Origin: an uncultured Acidobacteriota bacterium
GTDB lineage: Bacteria; Acidobacteriota; JAAYUB01
Reading direction: 5' to 3'
Length of the DNA stretch: 19,298 nt
Assembly: GCA_937925645.1 (NCBI GenBank)
Contig: CALAMB010000344.1
Span: 1-19,298 of the forward strand
The notes beneath the pieces were generated by a model. That model was not told the DNA's origin. It saw only the letters and a list, made by a program, of their open reading frames with translations, and ran no database searches. Position numbers and translations under genes: made by a program. This document shows positions 3,036-16,370 of the stretch, piece by piece (positions within the stretch are counted from its first letter, which is position 1; each line of letters begins with the position of its first letter).

Positions 3036-4138
3036 ACCGGCACCCCGGCCACGGTGACCGCGACCGGATCGCCGTCGTGGGCGGCGGGCCCGCCGGACTG
3101 TCGGCCGCGCTCACCGCGGCGCGCCTGGGCCTGCCGTGCGTGCTGTTCGAAAAGGGCGAGATCGGCGGGAACATCCAGTGCGCCGAGGGAATCTACGACC
3201 CGGCCGGCGTCCTGACCATGGAGAAGGCGTTCATCCGCACGCGGATCCGCCACGCGCGGCTGCACGTCAACGGCCGGTCGTTCACCTTCGACATCGGCTC
3301 GCGCAACCGTTTCTTCGTCATCGACCGCGGCGAGTGGCAGGCGGAGCTGGGCCGCCGGGCGCGGGCCGCCGGCGTGGAGGTGCGCGAGGGCGAGCGCGCG
3401 GACCCGTTCGCGCTGCAAGACGACTTCCGGGCGGTGGTGGACGCGCGCGGGATGTACGCCTTCTACTCCCGCTGGCACGAGTTCGATCCGCCCCCCGGCT
3501 TCGGCCTGCAGTGGACGCTGGAGGGCGACTTCTCCGCCTGGGCGAACACCATCGACGTCAAGATTCTCGAGGAGCAGCCGGGCTACTTCTGGATCTTCCC
3601 CAAGGGCACCCGCCAGGCCAACGTGGGTTTCGGCTGGCTGACCCGGCCCGCCGCGCCGCCGTGGGAGATCCTGGAGGGCTACCTCGAGGCGAACGGCATC
3701 GCCGGCTACCGGCGCGTGCGCAAGATCGGCGGCTTCCTGGTGGGCACCTGTCCCCAGCCGCCGTTCGTTGGCAAGGTGATCCGGGCCGGCGACGCGGGCG
3801 GATTCGCCTCGGCCCTGCACGGCGGCGGCATCGACGCCGCCTGGCTCACGGGCCGGCTGGCGGTGGAGACCGTCGTCCGCGGCGAGCCGGCTCATTTCCT
3901 CCGCGAGCTGAACCGGAAGCTGGGACTCATGCGCTGCGTGGAACAGCGGGTGATGGACAAGTGGCTGGCCGAGGGCCCGGCGGCGCTGGAGCGCGCCGGG
4001 CGGCTGCTCGAGGAGAACGGGCCGCTGCTCCGGGCCTCGGTGCGCTTCATCACCTCCGGGCTGCTGGGCGCGGCGGTGCGTCGCGTCTTCCAGGGCGCCA
4101 TGCCACGGGAGTTCTACCGGCTGACGGATCAGGTCTGA
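3032..4138 (+). CDS. FAD-dependent oxidoreductase, geranylgeranyl-reductase-like
   Basis: The 368-residue flavoprotein has an N-terminal Rossmann dinucleotide fold (IAVVGGGPAGLSAALTAARL, about residues 13-32), the family signature YFWIFPKG with W187 followed by ANVGFGW, and a second FAD motif GDAGGFAS around D254. The YxWxFPK signature and the overall order fit the geranylgeranyl reductase family, whose members saturate isoprenoid double bonds in archaeal lipids, chlorophyll or menaquinone. The early cysteine of GGNIQCAEG is also typical of the family. No membrane segment or signal peptide is seen. Its ATG overlaps the stop of the DHS-like gene, so the two are co-translated. The actual substrate cannot be read from sequence; a role on a polyamine- or isoprenoid-derived product is inference only. 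The gene ends 19 bp from a convergent gene, with no clear terminator between them. Confidence 0.82.
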   Translation: MNRHPGHGDRDRIAVVGGGPAGLSAALTAARLGLPCVLFEKGEIGGNIQCAEGIYDPAGVLTMEKAFIRTRIRHARLHVNGRSFTFDIGSRNRFFVIDRGEWQAELGRRARAAGVEVREGERADPFALQDDFRAVVDARGMYAFYSRWHEFDPPPGFGLQWTLEGDFSAWANTIDVKILEEQPGYFWIFPKGTRQANVGFGWLTRPAAPPWEILEGYLEANGIAGYRRVRKIGGFLVGTCPQPPFVGKVIRAGDAGGFASALHGGGIDAAWLTGRLAVETVVRGEPAHFLRELNRKLGLMRCVEQRVMDKWLAEGPAALERAGRLLEENGPLLRASVRFITSGLLGAAVRRVFQGAMPREFYRLTDQV

Positions 4139-4157
4139 TCCCTTCTCCGACCGGGTG

Positions 4158-5750
4158 TCAGGGATTCCCGGCCGACGGGACGCGTTCCCAGAGCCGCAGC
4201 CGCGCGGCGCGCTCCGCCGTCAGCCCGGCGTCGGCCGGCCATGGCCGCGGGGCGTAGTGCCGCGCCAGGTACGGCCGCCAGAGCCGCTCGAACCGCTCCA
4301 CCGCGGCCGGATTGTCCGCCCGCAGCAACCCGTACACGGGATGATCCCCCTCCACGACAAACCGCGGCCGCCGCCGCTCCAGGTCGGCGAAGAAGATCTC
4401 CAGCGCCCCTTCCGGCAGGGGATCCCGCAGCAGTTGCGGCCACCAGAAGAACCGCGCGGCCGGGTCCCGCCGGGCATAGAAGTAGATGTCGATATCCGCC
4501 GCCCAGACCAGCACCGCCCCGCCGGGCGGCGCCTGGCGGGCGAGCCAGCGGCCGATCCGCGCCGGTTCGTAGCCGGACTCCGCCACCCAGCCGGGTCGCG
4601 CGGCGAAGGCCGCCACGCTCTGCGCCGCCGCGGTGGCCACCGGCCAGGCCGTCACCGCCACCCCGGCCAGCAGGCCGGCCGCCGCGGCCCGCCACCGGAT
4701 CGGCTCGGCCAGGAGCGCGCCGGCCAGCAGGGCCAGCACCGGAATGATGAGCTGGAAGTAGTGATCCAGAAACTTCAGCGGTCCGGCCACCGCCAGCGCC
4801 GAGCCGGCCAGCCAGAGAAACAGGAACCGGCGCGCCTCCGGATCGGCCGAGCGGAACCGCCGGGGACGGAGCGCCAGCCACCCGGCGCCGGCCGCGGCGG
4901 CCAGAAGCAGGAACCACCGGGTCGCGGCGAATTCCCGGATGAAGCCCGTGGAGTAGTTCAGGAAGATCCGCCAGAAGTCGTGGACGGCGTACCGGGCGTT
5001 GTAGCCGAACGTGATCCGGAAAAAGTCTCCCAGCACCCCCTGTCCCGCGCACCAGGCCAGACACGCGGCGGGCGCCGCCGCCAGCCCGGCGGCGAAGGCG
5101 CCCAGCACCGCCCGGCGCCGGCCGGCGATGGCTCCCGTCGGCGCCGCGAGCGCCAGCCAGACCGCGATCGCCGCGATGGGGAAAGCCACGACGTACTTGT
5201 TCATGAACGCCAGCCCCAACAGGACGCCCGCGCCGGCGGCCGTCCAGGCGGGGGCGCGCGCCATCGCCCGGGAGAACAGCAGCCGGATCGCCGCGAGCTG
5301 GCAGCAGACCAGGAAGACTTCCGAGTTGAAGGAGACGGCTCCGAACGAGGCGGTGCAGGCATTGTAGAGCCACGCGGCGGCCAGTCCGGCCCAGAACCCG
5401 AACAGGCGGCGGCCGAGGGACAGCACCAGCAGGGTGTTGGCCAGGCCGAGCAGGAGGCCGGCAACGTGGATGGCTTCCGGGCTGTGGTCGATGGATTGGA
5501 CGCCCAGGTAGAGCAGGTACTGGATCGGCGGTTTCTGCTCCCAGACGTCCGCATAGAGCCGGCCGCCCCGGGAGAGCACGTCCGCGACGACCATGTAGCC
5601 CGTCTCGTCGATGCCGATGAGGGGCTCCCGCAGGTACCCCACCCGCATGGCGAGGAACAGCACGGACAGCAGCACCCAGGCGCCGACGCGCGCCAGGGCG
5701 CGTTCCCGCTGCCCGCCGCCGTCAGGGGAATCCGCCGGGTAGATATCCAT
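4158..5750 (-). CDS. Integral-membrane GT-C glycosyltransferase (ArnT/PMT, GT39/GT83-like)
   Basis: The 530-residue protein has about 10-12 hydrophobic segments (the first near residues 22-40) and a soluble C-terminal part from about residue 390. After the first segment comes IDETGYMVVADVLSRGG and then YADVWEQKPPIQYLLY, the first-loop acidic motif (D48, E49) and following loop typical of GT-C enzymes that use polyprenyl-phosphate sugars, such as ArnT and protein mannosyltransferases. The acceptor (lipid, glycan or protein) is unknown. ATG 5750 is used here. A TTG at 5762 is in frame, but neither start has a good Shine-Dalgarno sequence. The gene starts 19 nt after the stop of the secreted protease and is probably co-transcribed with it, which may hint at glycosylation of exported protein (weak inference). 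Confidence 0.82.
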   Translation of the reverse strand: MDIYPADSPDGGGQRERALARVGAWVLLSVLFLAMRVGYLREPLIGIDETGYMVVADVLSRGGRLYADVWEQKPPIQYLLYLGVQSIDHSPEAIHVAGLLLGLANTLLVLSLGRRLFGFWAGLAAAWLYNACTASFGAVSFNSEVFLVCCQLAAIRLLFSRAMARAPAWTAAGAGVLLGLAFMNKYVVAFPIAAIAVWLALAAPTGAIAGRRRAVLGAFAAGLAAAPAACLAWCAGQGVLGDFFRITFGYNARYAVHDFWRIFLNYSTGFIREFAATRWFLLLAAAAGAGWLALRPRRFRSADPEARRFLFLWLAGSALAVAGPLKFLDHYFQLIIPVLALLAGALLAEPIRWRAAAAGLLAGVAVTAWPVATAAAQSVAAFAARPGWVAESGYEPARIGRWLARQAPPGGAVLVWAADIDIYFYARRDPAARFFWWPQLLRDPLPEGALEIFFADLERRRPRFVVEGDHPVYGLLRADNPAAVERFERLWRPYLARHYAPRPWPADAGLTAERAARLRLWERVPSAGNP

Positions 5751-11135: not shown

Positions 11136-11180
11136 AGGTTGTCCGGGAGACCGTTCCGGAGAGGATCAGGCGGGAAAAAG

Positions 11181-11346
11181 CTGCAACGGTGCAGGGCGAA
11201 TCGTTTTGGTCCGGCAGTTCAAAGTGGGTGTCTGTTCAGCACTTCAGGCTTCCCTCTCGCAGAAGGCTTGCACACCGTGCCGAAACTCTAAACTCCCGTC
11301 CGTTCTCATCGCAGACCCAATTGGAATCACCCCGCACGCGTTGCAG
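11181..11346 (-). ncRNA. ssrS: 6S RNA
   Basis: The 166-nt RNA fits 6S RNA, which mimics an open promoter and sequesters the housekeeping sigma RNA polymerase in stationary phase. The ends pair in a closing stem of about 18 bp: CTGCAACG with CGTTGCAG, then (after one bulged C) GTGCGGGGTG with CGCCCTGCAC. The 3' half carries GAAGCCTGAAGTGCTGAA and then CAGACACCCACTTTGAAC, which match the conserved segment of E. coli 6S (GAAGCCTTAAAACTG, then ACGACACATTCACCTTGAAC). The position directly after zapA is the classical site of ssrS. The 5' end lies one base after the zapA stop, so it is either processed from the zapA transcript or made from a promoter inside zapA. A CTTTTTC run follows the closing stem and may serve as the terminator. 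Exact ends are predicted. Confidence 0.88.
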
Positions 11347-11347
11347 G

Positions 11348-11635
11348 TCAAGGTCGTTTCGGTGCCGGATCGGTGAATTGATCCAGAATCTTCACAAACT
11401 CGGCGCTCTTGCGGCCCACGAACTGGTTCAGCTCGCGATGTTGCTTGCGGAGCTGGAAGTATTCGTCGGCGATCTGGAACGCCGTGAGCATAGCCAGCCG
11501 GTGCGAGTCGATGATGTTCGAGGCGCGCTGGAGCTGCGTCATGCGCTCCTCGACAAAGCCAGCCAGTTCCTTGACGTAGGCCTCGTCGTTCACGTCCTGG
11601 ATGCTGAACACCTGGTTCAATATCTTGATCTGCAC
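11348..11635 (-). CDS. zapA: Cell division protein ZapA
   Basis: The 95-residue protein matches ZapA, which binds and bundles FtsZ filaments at the division ring. The N-terminal globular part begins MQIKILNQVFSIQ, is followed by the characteristic acidic DVNDEAYVKELAGFVEERM, and ends in a helical tail that forms a coiled coil. The start is GTG at 11635 with an AGGG ribosome-binding site 4 nt upstream. The gene lies 20 nt after the ZapB-like gene, at the end of the pheS-pheT part of the block, and its stop abuts the 6S RNA gene, as zapA-ssrS do in many proteobacteria. Confidence 0.93.
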   Translation of the reverse strand: MQIKILNQVFSIQDVNDEAYVKELAGFVEERMTQLQRASNIIDSHRLAMLTAFQIADEYFQLRKQHRELNQFVGRKSAEFVKILDQFTDPAPKRP

Positions 11636-11935: not shown

Positions 11936-13981
11936 CTATCGAAACTGGGCTTGGAAACGTTTCCGCAGGCTGGCGGCGGCACGTTCCCGGAGGCGGTCGG
12001 CCTCCTCGTCGGTCAGGGTGCGCTCGGGATGTTGAAAGACCAGCCGGACGTTCATCGCCTTGCGGTCCGGGGGAATGTCGTCCCCCCGGTAAAGGTCAAC
12101 CAGCTTAACCTCCGCTAATTCAGGCATTTTCAATTCAATGACCGACGTTTTTATTGTACTAAAACTGACCCCGATGTCAACGACAAAGGACATGTCGCGG
12201 TCAACGAACGGGAACCGCGGCAGGGCGCGGAAGGCAAACGACCGGTCGATGCCCGCCGCCAGCGGTTCGAACAGCAATTCGGCCACGAACACCTTCCGCC
12301 TGAACTTGAGCTTCTGGGCCAGCAGTTCATTGAGCTGGCCGATGTAACCGATGATCCCGCCCCCCAGCCGGATCCAGGCCGCCGCCCCCGGTTGCAGGAA
12401 GGGCGCGTCATCCGCCTCGTCAAACACGACCGCCGGAACGTTGAGGCGGTCGACCAGGCCCTCGACAACTCCTTTGATGCGGGCGAAATCCGCCGGGATC
12501 CCCGCCGCGGACCAGTGCGCCGGCAGCCACTGCCCGTACGCCCCGATGGCCAGCCGAACCGGCTCCACGTGGCCGTCACCGCACCGGTCGTACACCGAGG
12601 CCACCTCGAAGAGGCGGACGTCGGGGTTGTAGTTGTTCTCGTTGAGCTTCAGCGCGGCCACCATCGCCGGCAGCAGGCCCTGGCGCAGGAACGGCTCCCC
12701 CTCGTCCAGCGGATTGTCCACCCGGACCGGCTCGCCGGCTGGCGCCCAGAGGAGGGCGGCGTCGCGCTGGACGTCGGTGAAATTCGGCGTCAGGATCTCC
12801 TGCAGGCCGCACTCCTTCAGGAACTGCCGGACCGCGGCCTTCTCCCCGGCGAACTGGCGCGACACCGGACGCGACGGATGGAGCGGCAGGGTGGACGGAA
12901 TGCGGTCGTAGCCGTGCAGCCGGGCGACCTCCTCTATGAGGTCCACTTCCAGGCCCACGTCGACGCGATGGGCGGGCGGCCGGACGCGCCAGCCGTCGGG
13001 CGCCGCCTCCACCTGGAACCCCAGGCGGCGGAGCATCGCCTCGACCGGCAGCCCGGCGACGGGCACGCCCACCAGCCGCTCGACCCGTTCGCGGCGCAGG
13101 GCGATCTCCGGCGGCGCCCAGGGGCGCGGGTAGACGTCCACCACGGGCGACACCGCCTCGCCGCCGGCGAGTTCCAGGATCAGCCGCGCGGCCCGCCACA
13201 GGGCTCGCGGCGGCATCTCCAGGTCCGCGCCCCGCTCGAAGCGGTACGACGCCTCGGTGCGCATCTCCAGCGCCCGGGCGGTCCGGCGGACCGACGCGGG
13301 CTGGAACCAGGCGCTCTCCAGCAGGACGTCGGTGGTCGTGTCGGCCACCTCGCTCTCCGCCCCGCCCATCACGCCGGCGATCCCCACCGCGCGCGCCGCG
13401 TCGGCGATGACCAGCATGTCCGGGGCGAGGGCGCGGATGCGGCCGTCGAGGGTCTGAACCGTCTCGCCGGGGCGGGCCCGGCGCGCGACCAGGCACCCGC
13501 CGGTCAGTTTGCTGAAATCGTACGCGTGGAGCGGATGGCCCAGCTCCAGCAGGATGTAGTTGGTGATGTCCACCAGGTTGTTGATGGGGCGCTGGCCCAC
13601 GGCCAGGAGCCGCTCCTGGAGCCAGCACGGCGACGGCGCCACCCGGACGCCGGTGATGCGCACTCCGCAGAAGCGGGCGCACAGATCGGGGTCCTCGATG
13701 GTGATGGCCGGCGCCGGGGCGGCGTCCCGGCCGGCGTCCAGCGCGGCGGGCGCCCGGCGTCGCAGCGGCTCGTGGTACAGGGCGCTGAGCTCGCGGGCGA
13801 TGCCGAGGTGGCTGAGGCAGTCGGGGCGGTTGGCCGTGACGTCGATGTCGATCAGCGTGTCGTGGGACAGGCGCTCCATCGCGTCGACGGGCAGACCGAG
13901 CATGGACAGGTCGGCCGCCAGCCGGTCCGGCGGTTCGTCCAGGGCGATGAGGTCGGCCATCCAGTGGCAGCTGATTTTCAT
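11936..13981 (-). CDS. pheT: Phenylalanine-tRNA ligase beta subunit, short form without the N-terminal tRNA-binding OB domain
   Basis: PheT forms the alpha2-beta2 PheRS with PheS, contributing editing of Tyr-tRNA-Phe and tRNA binding. The 681-residue protein starts as usual (MKISCHWMADLIAL, MLGLPVDAMERL) but passes straight to DTLIDIDVTANRPDCLSHLG, which in E. coli follows the EMAP-type OB domain (roughly residues 39-148 there). That domain is absent here, and the shortfall of about 114 residues against E. coli matches its size. The B3/B4 editing region, B5 and the C-terminal anticodon-binding domain (from about 590, with FPFVDRDMSFVVD and RKAMNVRLVFQHPERTLTD) are present. It lies 25 nt after pheS; an AAGGAG motif sits 11 nt before the start. 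Confidence 0.96.
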   Translation of the reverse strand: MKISCHWMADLIALDEPPDRLAADLSMLGLPVDAMERLSHDTLIDIDVTANRPDCLSHLGIARELSALYHEPLRRRAPAALDAGRDAAPAPAITIEDPDLCARFCGVRITGVRVAPSPCWLQERLLAVGQRPINNLVDITNYILLELGHPLHAYDFSKLTGGCLVARRARPGETVQTLDGRIRALAPDMLVIADAARAVGIAGVMGGAESEVADTTTDVLLESAWFQPASVRRTARALEMRTEASYRFERGADLEMPPRALWRAARLILELAGGEAVSPVVDVYPRPWAPPEIALRRERVERLVGVPVAGLPVEAMLRRLGFQVEAAPDGWRVRPPAHRVDVGLEVDLIEEVARLHGYDRIPSTLPLHPSRPVSRQFAGEKAAVRQFLKECGLQEILTPNFTDVQRDAALLWAPAGEPVRVDNPLDEGEPFLRQGLLPAMVAALKLNENNYNPDVRLFEVASVYDRCGDGHVEPVRLAIGAYGQWLPAHWSAAGIPADFARIKGVVEGLVDRLNVPAVVFDEADDAPFLQPGAAAWIRLGGGIIGYIGQLNELLAQKLKFRRKVFVAELLFEPLAAGIDRSFAFRALPRFPFVDRDMSFVVDIGVSFSTIKTSVIELKMPELAEVKLVDLYRGDDIPPDRKAMNVRLVFQHPERTLTDEEADRLRERAAASLRKRFQAQFR

Positions 13982-14006: not shown

Positions 14007-15041
14007 TCAGAAGCGGTGGAACTGGTTCAGGAACCGGACGTCGTTCTCCCAGAACATCCGGATGTCGGGGACGCCGTACCGAAGAATGGCGACCCGGTCG
14101 ATGCCCATGCCGAAGGCGAAGCCCGTGTAGCGCTCGCTGTCGATGCCGCACGCGTCGAACACGTTGGGATGGACCATGCCGGCGCCCAGGATCTCGATCC
14201 AGCCGCTCCCCTTGCAGATCCGGCAGCCGCGGCCGCCGCAGAAAAAGCAGCTCACGTCCACCTCGGCGCCGGGCTCCACGAAGGGGAAGAAGCTGGGCCG
14301 CAGCCGGATGCGGGCGTCCGCGGCGAAGCATTCGCGAGCGAAGTGCTCCAGCGTGCCCTTCAGGTCGGCCAGGGAGACGCCTTCGTCCACCACCAGTCCC
14401 TCGATCTGGTGGAAGATGGGAAAGTGGGTGGCGTCGGGCGTGTCCTTGCGGTACACCTTGCCGGGGGCGATGACCTTGAGCGGCGGCGCCACCGCCTGCA
14501 TGGTCCGGATCTGGACCGGCGAGGTGTGCGTGCGTAGCAGGAAGGACCCGTCGCCGATGAAGAACGTGTCCTGCGCGTCGCGCGCCGGGTGGTCCGGCGG
14601 AAAGTTCAGGGCGCCGAAGTTGAAGAAATCGGTCTCGATCTCCGGTCCCTCGGCGATGGCGTAACCCATCCGCTGGAAGATGCCGCAGATCTCGGCCTCG
14701 ACCTGCTTGACGGGGTGCAGCGTGCCCCGGGCCACGGGGAAGCCGGGCAGCGTGACGTCGAGGCGCTCCTTTTCCAGCCGGTCCTGGTAGGCCGCCAGGC
14801 GGACCTGCCCGGCCAGTTCGTCCAGCCGGGTCTCGATGGCCGCCTTGAGCCGGTTGACTTCCTGGCCGAAGGCGGGCCGCTCGGCGGGCGGCAGGTCGCG
14901 CAGGCGCTTGAGCTGGAGGGTCAGGAGGCCCTTCTCCCGCGACAGGTAGCGCTCCCGCAGCAGGCCGTACGCCGGCTCGTCGCGGACCTCGCGGCACTCC
15001 GCCTCAAAACCCTCCATGATTCGGGCCAGGTCATCACGCAT
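14007..15041 (-). CDS. pheS: Phenylalanine-tRNA ligase alpha subunit
   Basis: The 344-residue catalytic subunit of PheRS charges tRNA-Phe. It has the N-terminal coiled-coil arm (residues 1-90), class II motif 1 (HPVKQVEAEICGIFQRMGYA), motif 2 (LLRTHTSPVQIRTM and GKVYRKDTPDATHFPIFHQI) and motif 3 (GFAFGMGIDRVAILRYGVPD). Length is normal for bacteria. ATG 15041 is chosen because AAGGAG lies 8 nt upstream. The frame is open a further 22 codons to a TTG at 15107, but that stretch is the terminator hairpin and its T-run. Expression must pass this attenuator, since no promoter can fit between it and the start. Confidence 0.97.
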   Translation of the reverse strand: MRDDLARIMEGFEAECREVRDEPAYGLLRERYLSREKGLLTLQLKRLRDLPPAERPAFGQEVNRLKAAIETRLDELAGQVRLAAYQDRLEKERLDVTLPGFPVARGTLHPVKQVEAEICGIFQRMGYAIAEGPEIETDFFNFGALNFPPDHPARDAQDTFFIGDGSFLLRTHTSPVQIRTMQAVAPPLKVIAPGKVYRKDTPDATHFPIFHQIEGLVVDEGVSLADLKGTLEHFARECFAADARIRLRPSFFPFVEPGAEVDVSCFFCGGRGCRICKGSGWIEILGAGMVHPNVFDACGIDSERYTGFAFGMGIDRVAILRYGVPDIRMFWENDVRFLNQFHRF

Positions 15042-15055
15042 CGCGGGCTCCTTGC

Positions 15056-15093
15056 AAAAAAAAACCGGCTGCACCGTAGCGGGACAGCCGGTT
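15056..15093 (-). terminator. Intrinsic terminator/attenuator between rplT and pheS
   Basis: On the minus strand AACCGGCTG pairs with CAGCCGGTT (9 bp), topped by CCG-CTA-CGG (3 bp, 3-nt loop) across a small internal loop, followed at once by a run of nine T (15056-15064). This is a textbook Rho-independent terminator. It starts 26 nt after the rplT stop, and its T-tract ends 14 nt before the pheS start, with the pheS ribosome-binding site in between. It therefore both ends the rpmI-rplT transcript and gates pheST. In E. coli the same site holds the pheM attenuator; no Phe-rich leader peptide with a standard start is visible here, so the sensor is unknown. Confidence 0.88.
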
Positions 15094-15119
15094 GATGTTC
15101 CTTTCAAACGAACTGAGGA

Positions 15120-15470
15120 TTATGCCTGCTTGGCCACTGACACCAGTTCGGCGAAGGTGACCGGGTTGTTCACGGCGAGTTCCGCCAGGACTTTCCGGTC
15201 GAGTTCCACACCGGCTTTTTTCAAACCGGACATAAATCGGCTGTACGACACACCGTGTTCGCGGGTGGCCGCGTTGATCCGGATGATCCAGAGCGACCGG
15301 AACTGGCGCTTGCGCTGGCGCCGGTCGCGGTACGCGTAACCCAACGCCTTCTCCACGGTCTCCTTGGCGGTGCGGTACAGGCGGTTGCGCGACCCCCGGT
15401 ATCCCTTGGCCAGGGCCAGGATCTTTTTTCGGTTCAGCAGTCTCTTGTTTCCACGCTTCACTCGGGGCAT
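15120..15470 (-). CDS. rplT: 50S ribosomal protein L20 (bL20)
   Basis: The 116-residue protein begins [18 protein letters not shown] and carries [40 protein letters not shown] and [15 protein letters not shown], all typical of L20, which binds 23S rRNA early in large-subunit assembly. The long basic N-terminal arm and globular C-terminal domain are complete. It lies 22 nt after rpmI. In enterics and bacilli L20 represses its own operon by binding the leader mRNA; the structured leader upstream of rpmI here is the likely target. The attenuator follows the stop codon. Confidence 0.98.
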
Positions 15471-15492
15471 GACGGTTCTCTCCTCAGCGCCA

Positions 15493-15699
15493 TCAGATTT
15501 GGAGCATTTCCCTGACGCGGCCCAGGTCGGCGCTGGCGACCAAACCGGTCTGGCGGAGGTTGCGCTTCCGCTTGCGGGTCTTCTTCGTCAGAATGTGGCT
15601 CTTATGGCTGTGGCCGCGCAGGACCTTGCCCGTCGCGGTCACCCGGAAGCGCTTGGTGGCGCCTTTCTTGGTCTTCAGCTTCGTCTTCAGCTTGTGCAC
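15493..15699 (-). CDS. rpmI: 50S ribosomal protein L35 (bL35)
   Basis: The 68-residue protein reads [20 protein letters not shown] and later [20 protein letters not shown], the standard L35 sequence. The start is GTG at 15699, set by AAGGAG 7 nt upstream; a longer open frame to 15753 would add residues unlike any L35. It lies between infC and rplT, the usual order, and has its own consensus promoter and about 84 nt of structured leader, so L35 and L20 can be made independently of IF3. Confidence 0.97.
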
Positions 15700-15783
15700 G
15701 GTCCAACTCCTTTTGCGATGACACCATGTCGTGGCTTGTCGCGGAGCCGGCAACGGGGCTGGAGCCTGCTCCCGCGAAAAAAC
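15700..15783 (-). promoter_or_regulatory. Structured rpmI-rplT leader, candidate L20 autoregulatory element
   Basis: The leader can fold: CGCGG-(G)-AGC pairs with GCTCCGCG (8 bp, one bulge) enclosing a GGCTCCAGCC mini-hairpin, and GACA-TGG-TGTC forms a small hairpin about 20 nt before the ribosome-binding site. Position directly before rpmI-rplT is where L20 binds leader RNA in other bacteria. I cannot match it to a specific Rfam family by eye. Confidence 0.5.
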
Positions 15784-15789
15784 GGGCTA

Positions 15790-15817
15790 ATTATAATGAT
15801 AAATTCGGATCTGTCAA
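15790..15817 (-). promoter_or_regulatory. Consensus sigma-70 promoter for rpmI-rplT
   Basis: On the minus strand TTGACA (15812-15817) and TATAAT (15790-15795) are both perfect, separated by 16 bp that are unusually A/T-rich for this region. Initiation near 15783 would place the leader and rpmI downstream. The promoter lies just after the infC stop codon, so it is internal to the thrS-infC-rpmI-rplT cluster. Confidence 0.82.
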
Positions 15818-15836
15818 TGGCCTTTCAGGCGACGGG

Positions 15837-16370
15837 TCATTTTTTCGGCATGAGGTGCATCACCATCAGCCGGCCCTCCATCTCCGGCGGCTTGACCATA
15901 TCGGCCAGCCCCTCGAGCTCCTCGACCAGCCGGGCCAGCAGTTCGTACCCCAGCTCCGGGTGCGCCATTTCCCGGCCCCGGAAGAAGACGCCGCACTTGA
16001 CCCGGTTGCCTTCCTCAAGGAACCGGATGATGTGTTTTTTCTTGAACTCGAAGTCGTGAGTGTCGGTGCGGGGCCGGAACTTCACTTCCTTGAGCTGGAC
16101 CATCTTCTGCTTCTTCTTCGCGTCGTGCTGCTTCTTCTTCTGCTGATAGAGGAATTTGCCGTAGTCCATGACCTTGGCCACGGGCGGCTCGGCGCTCGGG
16201 GCGATCTCCACCAGGTCGACTAGTTTTTCGGTGGCGAGCGCCAAGGCCTGAGCGATGGGAACGACGCCGAGCTGCGTCCCGTCGCTGTCGATCAGTCGGA
16301 CTTCCGGTGCGGTGATCTCCTCGTTGATGCGCACTCGGTCCCGGCTCTCGTGTTTGGGTGCTGGTTTAAT
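15837..16370 (-). CDS. infC: Translation initiation factor IF-3 with probable AUU start
   Basis: IF-3 binds the 30S subunit, keeps subunits apart and checks the start codon. The 177-residue protein has the N-terminal domain (RVRINEEITAPEVRLIDSDG), a Lys-rich linker (YQQKKKQHDAKKKQKM), and the C-terminal domain (VKFRPRTDTHDFEFKKKHI and NRVKCGVFFRGREMAHPELG). A GTG at 16334 would start the protein at MRINEEI without a good ribosome-binding site and remove the usual N-terminal tail. The codon ATT at 16370 has a perfect AGGAGG 6 nt upstream, and gives MKPAPKHESRDRVRINEEIT, close to the usual length. AUU starts of infC are known from E. coli and allow IF-3 to repress its own translation. It lies 36 nt after thrS. 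Confidence 0.93.
   Translation of the reverse strand: MKPAPKHESRDRVRINEEITAPEVRLIDSDGTQLGVVPIAQALALATEKLVDLVEIAPSAEPPVAKVMDYGKFLYQQKKKQHDAKKKQKMVQLKEVKFRPRTDTHDFEFKKKHIIRFLEEGNRVKCGVFFRGREMAHPELGYELLARLVEELEGLADMVKPPEMEGRLMVMHLMPKK

Follow-up and report, generated by a model that had tools for sequence, protein, structure and literature searches.

In the window, the 19,298-nucleotide stretch of DNA from an uncultured Acidobacteriota bacterium (contig CALAMB010000344.1) that was analysed here, a terminator-like hairpin stands directly ahead of pheS. This raises the question of whether pheST is controlled by a phenylalanine-sensing attenuator, as the sequence-only reading had proposed by analogy with pheM of Escherichia coli, or whether the hairpin plays a simpler role. 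The genes lie on the minus strand, as do all features of the window described below, in the order thrS, infC, rpmI, rplT, pheS, pheT, which is that of E. coli, and PheS, PheT, L20, L35, IF-3 and ThrRS each score above the curated cut-off of its NCBIfam model. The rpmI gene (L35; 15493-15699; TIGR00001) was given a GTG start that is common to the aligned relatives, the mechanical ORF call beginning farther upstream, at a TTG at 15753. It is followed by rplT (L20; 15120-15470; TIGR01032), by pheS (14007-15041; TIGR00468), whose ATG at 15041 specifies the Met at which the PheS alignments of close relatives begin, and by pheT (11936-13981; TIGR00472). The rplT stop codon (15122-15120) and the pheS ATG (15041-15039) are separated by 78 nt (15119-15042), comprising a 26-nt spacer (15094-15119), the hairpin (15063-15093), a U-tract of nine T (15056-15064), the first two of which are also paired, and the pheS ribosome-binding region with AAGGAG (15042-15055). 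Downstream of pheT we also observed a 6S RNA gene (11174-11352), which occupies the same place in L003, L106, L107 and L108.

The arms of the hairpin, AACCGGCTG and CAGCCGGTT, form nine Watson-Crick pairs, a U.G pair and a 3-bp top with the loop CUA. The 83-nt junction stretch folds at -29.4 kcal/mol, a value equalled by 2 of 200 shuffles, and a custom terminator detector scored the hairpin at -20.8 kcal/mol and gave no match on the reverse strand. A simple consensus terminator scan missed it, probably because of the 3-8 nt loop limit of that scan and the internal mismatch in the stem. The stem pairs kept a mean predicted probability of 0.94-0.95 when 60-180 nt of upstream context were folded with them, and the predicted fold also pairs GUUC in the spacer with GAGC in the Shine-Dalgarno (SD) region. 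With a stable GC-rich stem and a U-tract directly after it, the hairpin is, as a feature of the sequence, an intrinsic terminator that is conserved in the class. The description given earlier, of a strong terminator between rplT and pheS with nine T ending 14 nt before the pheS start, is therefore accurate, both in the sequence and in the fold compared with shuffles.

For the order and class we used six genomes, which together with the window give seven rows (window, L001, L002, L106, L003, L107 and L108); PheS identity to the window is 94-95% in L001, L002 and L106, 70% in L003 and 63-64% in L107 and L108. Between rplT and pheS all six genomes have a hairpin whose stem core is ACCGGYUG/CARCCGGU and which is followed by 7-9 T, and one stem pair shows a compensatory C-G to U-A change across the class. 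The 26-nt spacer is identical in the four genus-level genomes; spacer and loop diverge beyond the genus, in L003, L107 and L108, and the loops of L107 and L108 resemble each other. A genome-wide repeated terminator element was ruled out, as the stem pattern has only one to four copies in each genome, with a single copy in G005 and in G006, compared with zero to two for a control pattern. In L108 the hairpin dominates the predicted fold as it does in the window (mean pair probability 0.94-0.96). In L003 the mean falls to 0.63 once 120 nt of upstream sequence are included, and in L107 other pairings displace the stem in a fold with 180 nt of upstream context (0.11); these predictions count mildly against a simple terminator in those two loci.

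A sigma-70 promoter, TTGACA-16-TATAAT, matching the consensus at 12 of 12 positions, lies upstream of rpmI (15790-15817), and a 12/12 promoter is present upstream of rpmI in all seven class loci. Between rpmI and pheS no promoter-like site of at least 9/12 was found in the window. Transcripts of pheST most likely have to cross the hairpin, in agreement with the sequence-only reading. In L107 and L108, promoter-like sites of 9-10/12 occur in or at the end of rpmI or rplT, upstream of the hairpin. In L108 (G006) rpmI-rplT-pheST (3235-5181) looks like a unit of its own, given that the first long ORF upstream of it, of 602 aa, runs in the opposite direction and that infC was not found within the 12 kb read; the contig of L107 begins too near rpmI to show the gene upstream. 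The 5' leader of rpmI (15700-15789) carries GCAGGCTYCAGCCCCGTT in the window and the genus and GCAGGCTTAAGTCCCGTT in L107 and L108, neither being seen in L003. It has no Rfam match at the gathering score in the window, and the motif, which follows the perfect promoter, may be a ribosomal-protein leader element. As to a possible mimicry of rRNA by this leader, through which L20 could bind, a 23S search matched one of the six genomes, G001, where the relevant region reads N.

The E. coli K-12 junction was run as a control with the same detector and the same upstream-pairing test. Its rplT-pheS gap measures 450 nt and contains two terminator-like hairpins and the annotated pheM: the rplT stop is followed after 10 nt by the first hairpin (AGAGGGAGCTAGTCTCCCTCT; -12.0 kcal/mol) and after 212 nt by the pheM attenuator (-14.4 kcal/mol). 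The window hairpin, 26 nt after the rplT stop, corresponds by position to the first of these and not to the attenuator, with which it had been equated. In both bacteria a terminator-like hairpin with a U-tract thus comes just after rplT; in E. coli pheM and the attenuator come next, whereas in the window pheS follows directly. The attenuator is, like the window hairpin, a terminator between rplT and pheS, but it differs in its distance from rplT, in its 14-residue leader peptide and in its competing upstream pairing, and the window lacks all three. The best upstream pairing with the 5' arm of the E. coli attenuator reached -13.7 kcal/mol, equalled by 0-2 of 200 shuffles, whereas in the window no competing upstream pairing was detected, the best values (-9.6 to -13.8 kcal/mol) being equalled by 143-174 of 200. 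The relatives, to which the earlier reading had looked for an antiterminator or a conserved upstream ORF, showed no conserved upstream ORF; as to a competitor, L107 (69-100 of 200 shuffles as good) and L108 (61-193 of 200) were unremarkable, and L003 was borderline, with 12 of 200 at 60 nt and 40 and 46 when more context was included.

We then counted terminators with one detector at four junctions, in the class, in other Acidobacteriota and outside the phylum. At rplT-pheS they were detected in 7 of 7 class rows (four distinct hairpins, the window and the three genus-level rows having the same one), in 10 of 83 other Acidobacteriota and in 23 of 30 loci outside the phylum, which, judged by their record titles, are for the most part related Proteobacteria and are not independent. 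In the same order, the counts were 0/5, 1/36 and 0/30 at infC-rpmI, 0/7, 0/73 and 0/32 at rpmI-rplT, and 0/7, 0/33 and 0/35 at pheS-pheT; the expectation from shuffled sequences was at most 0.8 per group. The neighbouring junctions pooled therefore gave 1 in 258, of which 124 were too short to scan, and as a control they carry little weight where the gap is shorter than 30 nt. Such gaps stayed in the denominators unscanned: 0, 21 and 4 at rplT-pheS, 0, 11 and 7 at infC-rpmI, 7, 35 and 28 at rpmI-rplT, and 7, 27 and 2 at pheS-pheT. No terminator was detected at 73 of the 83 rplT-pheS junctions in other Acidobacteriota (gaps below 30 nt in 21 of the 83). On the reverse strand the same detector gave 0, 0 and 9 matches at rplT-pheS, all nine in loci outside the phylum, where A and T flank many of the hairpins, and 1, 1 and 1 at infC-rpmI. 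A looser detector, applied to 60 Acidobacteriota junctions of at least 40 nt (class included), returned 21 forward and 10 reverse matches. A pheS match was obtained in 166 Acidobacteriota genomes outside the class; from these came 115 junction loci, 83 of them counted. Outside the phylum, 30 of 48 loci entered the count. Duplicates (L052-L057), pattern loci (L082-L091), rRNA loci (L186-L189) and loci in which no rplT was found upstream within 800 nt were left out.

Among the proteobacterial loci, L014, L016, L019, L020 and L021 have only 44-47 nt from the rplT stop to the pheS ATG, with a terminator between. Like the window, they combine a post-rplT terminator with no space for a Phe leader; unlike the window, their stems are GGAGGC or GGAGGCC with the complement, and the ATG is even nearer. 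The tight arrangement that had been described as leaving no room for a separate promoter is thus present in the window, but it is not peculiar to it, being tighter in some of these loci. Only 3 nt separate the end of the T-run from the pheS ATG in L016, L019 and L020, and no SD is visible by eye. Outside the phylum, 6 of 30 loci have a junction ORF with at least three Phe codons. None of the six resembles pheM, given where the codons lie: no Phe codon precedes the hairpin, except for one in L030, and in five of the six some Phe codons overlap the hairpin or the T-run, the ORF of L022 starting after the hairpin. In the open-licence literature searched, no title dealt with a terminator between rplT and pheS outside E. 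coli.

Could the window junction sense the charging of Phe-tRNA as pheM does, with the tail of rplT or a TTG-started extension of pheS as the sensor? We consider this very improbable. In the window and in three genus-level relatives the pheS frame extends upstream without a stop beyond a TTG at 15107, and the T-run supplies Phe codons in that frame, which had been read as a hint at a sensor. The open frame stands within the genus, but the extension from the TTG is not kept beyond it: in L003 a TGA interrupts the frame 12 nt ahead of the pheS ATG, and L107 and L108 have an open frame but not that TTG. The Phe-Phe of the T-run is automatic when a run of T is read in the right frame (TTT encodes Phe), and Phe codons inside the U-tract of the terminator itself would come too late to steer the hairpin. 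No ORF has a Phe codon in the stretch from the rplT stop to the hairpin in the window, L001, L106, L002, L003, L107 or L108; L107 has two ORFs with three Phe, both starting inside the hairpin. A leader peptide or an N-terminal extension of PheS was accordingly rejected, by the TGA of L003 and the lack of a conserved ORF. Only 26 nt separate rplT from the hairpin, and the junction in the window matches no Rfam family at the gathering score, the T-box included; at relaxed Rfam thresholds no T-box was found in the window (14900-15900), L003, L106, L107 or L108, where only weak unrelated families appeared. The earlier statement that neither a Phe leader peptide ahead of the hairpin nor a T-box is present was thereby confirmed. 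Its suggestion of a new sensing mechanism is unsupported and appears unlikely: no competing pairing was found in the window, the arrangement can be explained without such a mechanism, and a new pheM-like sensor at this junction is not supported by our analysis.

An attenuator free of a leader peptide, in which a protein or an RNA (L20, encoded by the neighbouring gene, is one candidate) binds the junction and alters read-through into pheST, appears unlikely as well, and the low probability that we keep for it derives mainly from the conservation of the junction. The window differs from each of its three close relatives at 1 of 78 junction positions, compared with 7-12 of 145 at infC-rpmI (a stretch that includes the first 9 nt of rpmI), 3-4 of 22 at rpmI-rplT and 4-5 of 25 at pheS-pheT. 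A block of 120 columns (15164-15045), which takes in the tail of rplT and the larger part of the junction, is invariant among the four genus-level genomes and is the longest seen between infC and pheT; among 60-column windows one other (14924) is also invariant, and most have 3-12 variable positions. This exceeds what the hairpin alone needs, and may come from function, from recent recombination or from codon constraint in rplT. Not just the pairing but the stem sequence itself persists at about 63% PheS identity, the stem pattern being found a single time in each of G005 and G006, and in Bacillus subtilis L20 is described as acting on a terminator upstream of infC (PMC6097659). Against such regulation, L003, L107 and L108 differ from the window in spacer and loop, the window offers neither an antiterminator competitor nor an Rfam match, and the arrangement recurs elsewhere with unrelated stems. 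That a trans-acting factor, perhaps L20, would bind the class stem and the rplT tail and so couple pheST read-through to ribosome assembly seems to us decidedly doubtful. It is also improbable that the hairpin acts mainly after transcription and terminates little, whether by protecting the rpmI-rplT mRNA, as its 3' end or as a processing site, or by tuning ribosome entry at pheS. The U-tract does adjoin the SD, the GUUC/GAGC pairing is predicted, and RNase III is described as cleaving the pheM terminator structure of E. coli (PMC5371410), but 7-9 T directly after a stable stem, as termination requires, are present in all class members, and the predicted folds of L003, L107 and L108 lack the SD pairing seen in that of the window. 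A pairing considered by eye between UCCUC after the rplT stop and the pheS SD was dropped, being absent from L107 and L108.

The explanation that we favour, and regard as probable, is that of an intercistronic Rho-independent terminator that ends the rpmI-rplT segment, leaky and unregulated, and that lowers the output of pheST. The strong promoter upstream of rpmI would drive L35 and L20, the hairpin would halt most polymerases, and a roughly constant fraction of them would read into pheS-pheT, so that the PheRS subunits would end up below the level of the ribosomal proteins. According to Naville and Gautheret, hardly any of the attenuators that they predict for phyla such as Acidobacteria have an associated function, and pheS and rplT do not occur in the main text of their study (PMC2965389). 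For secA-prfB of B. subtilis, a partial terminator inside a co-transcribed gene pair is described on the basis of Rend-seq (PMC8073009); the case proposed here would be of the same kind, predicted from the sequence.

In conclusion, the junction in the window is, as a single case, ordinary. The analysis suggests that terminators between rplT and pheS, with no Phe sensor, recur in unrelated bacteria. The pheM attenuator of E. coli may then be one elaboration of a wider theme, in which the output of ribosomal proteins is separated from that of the synthetase.
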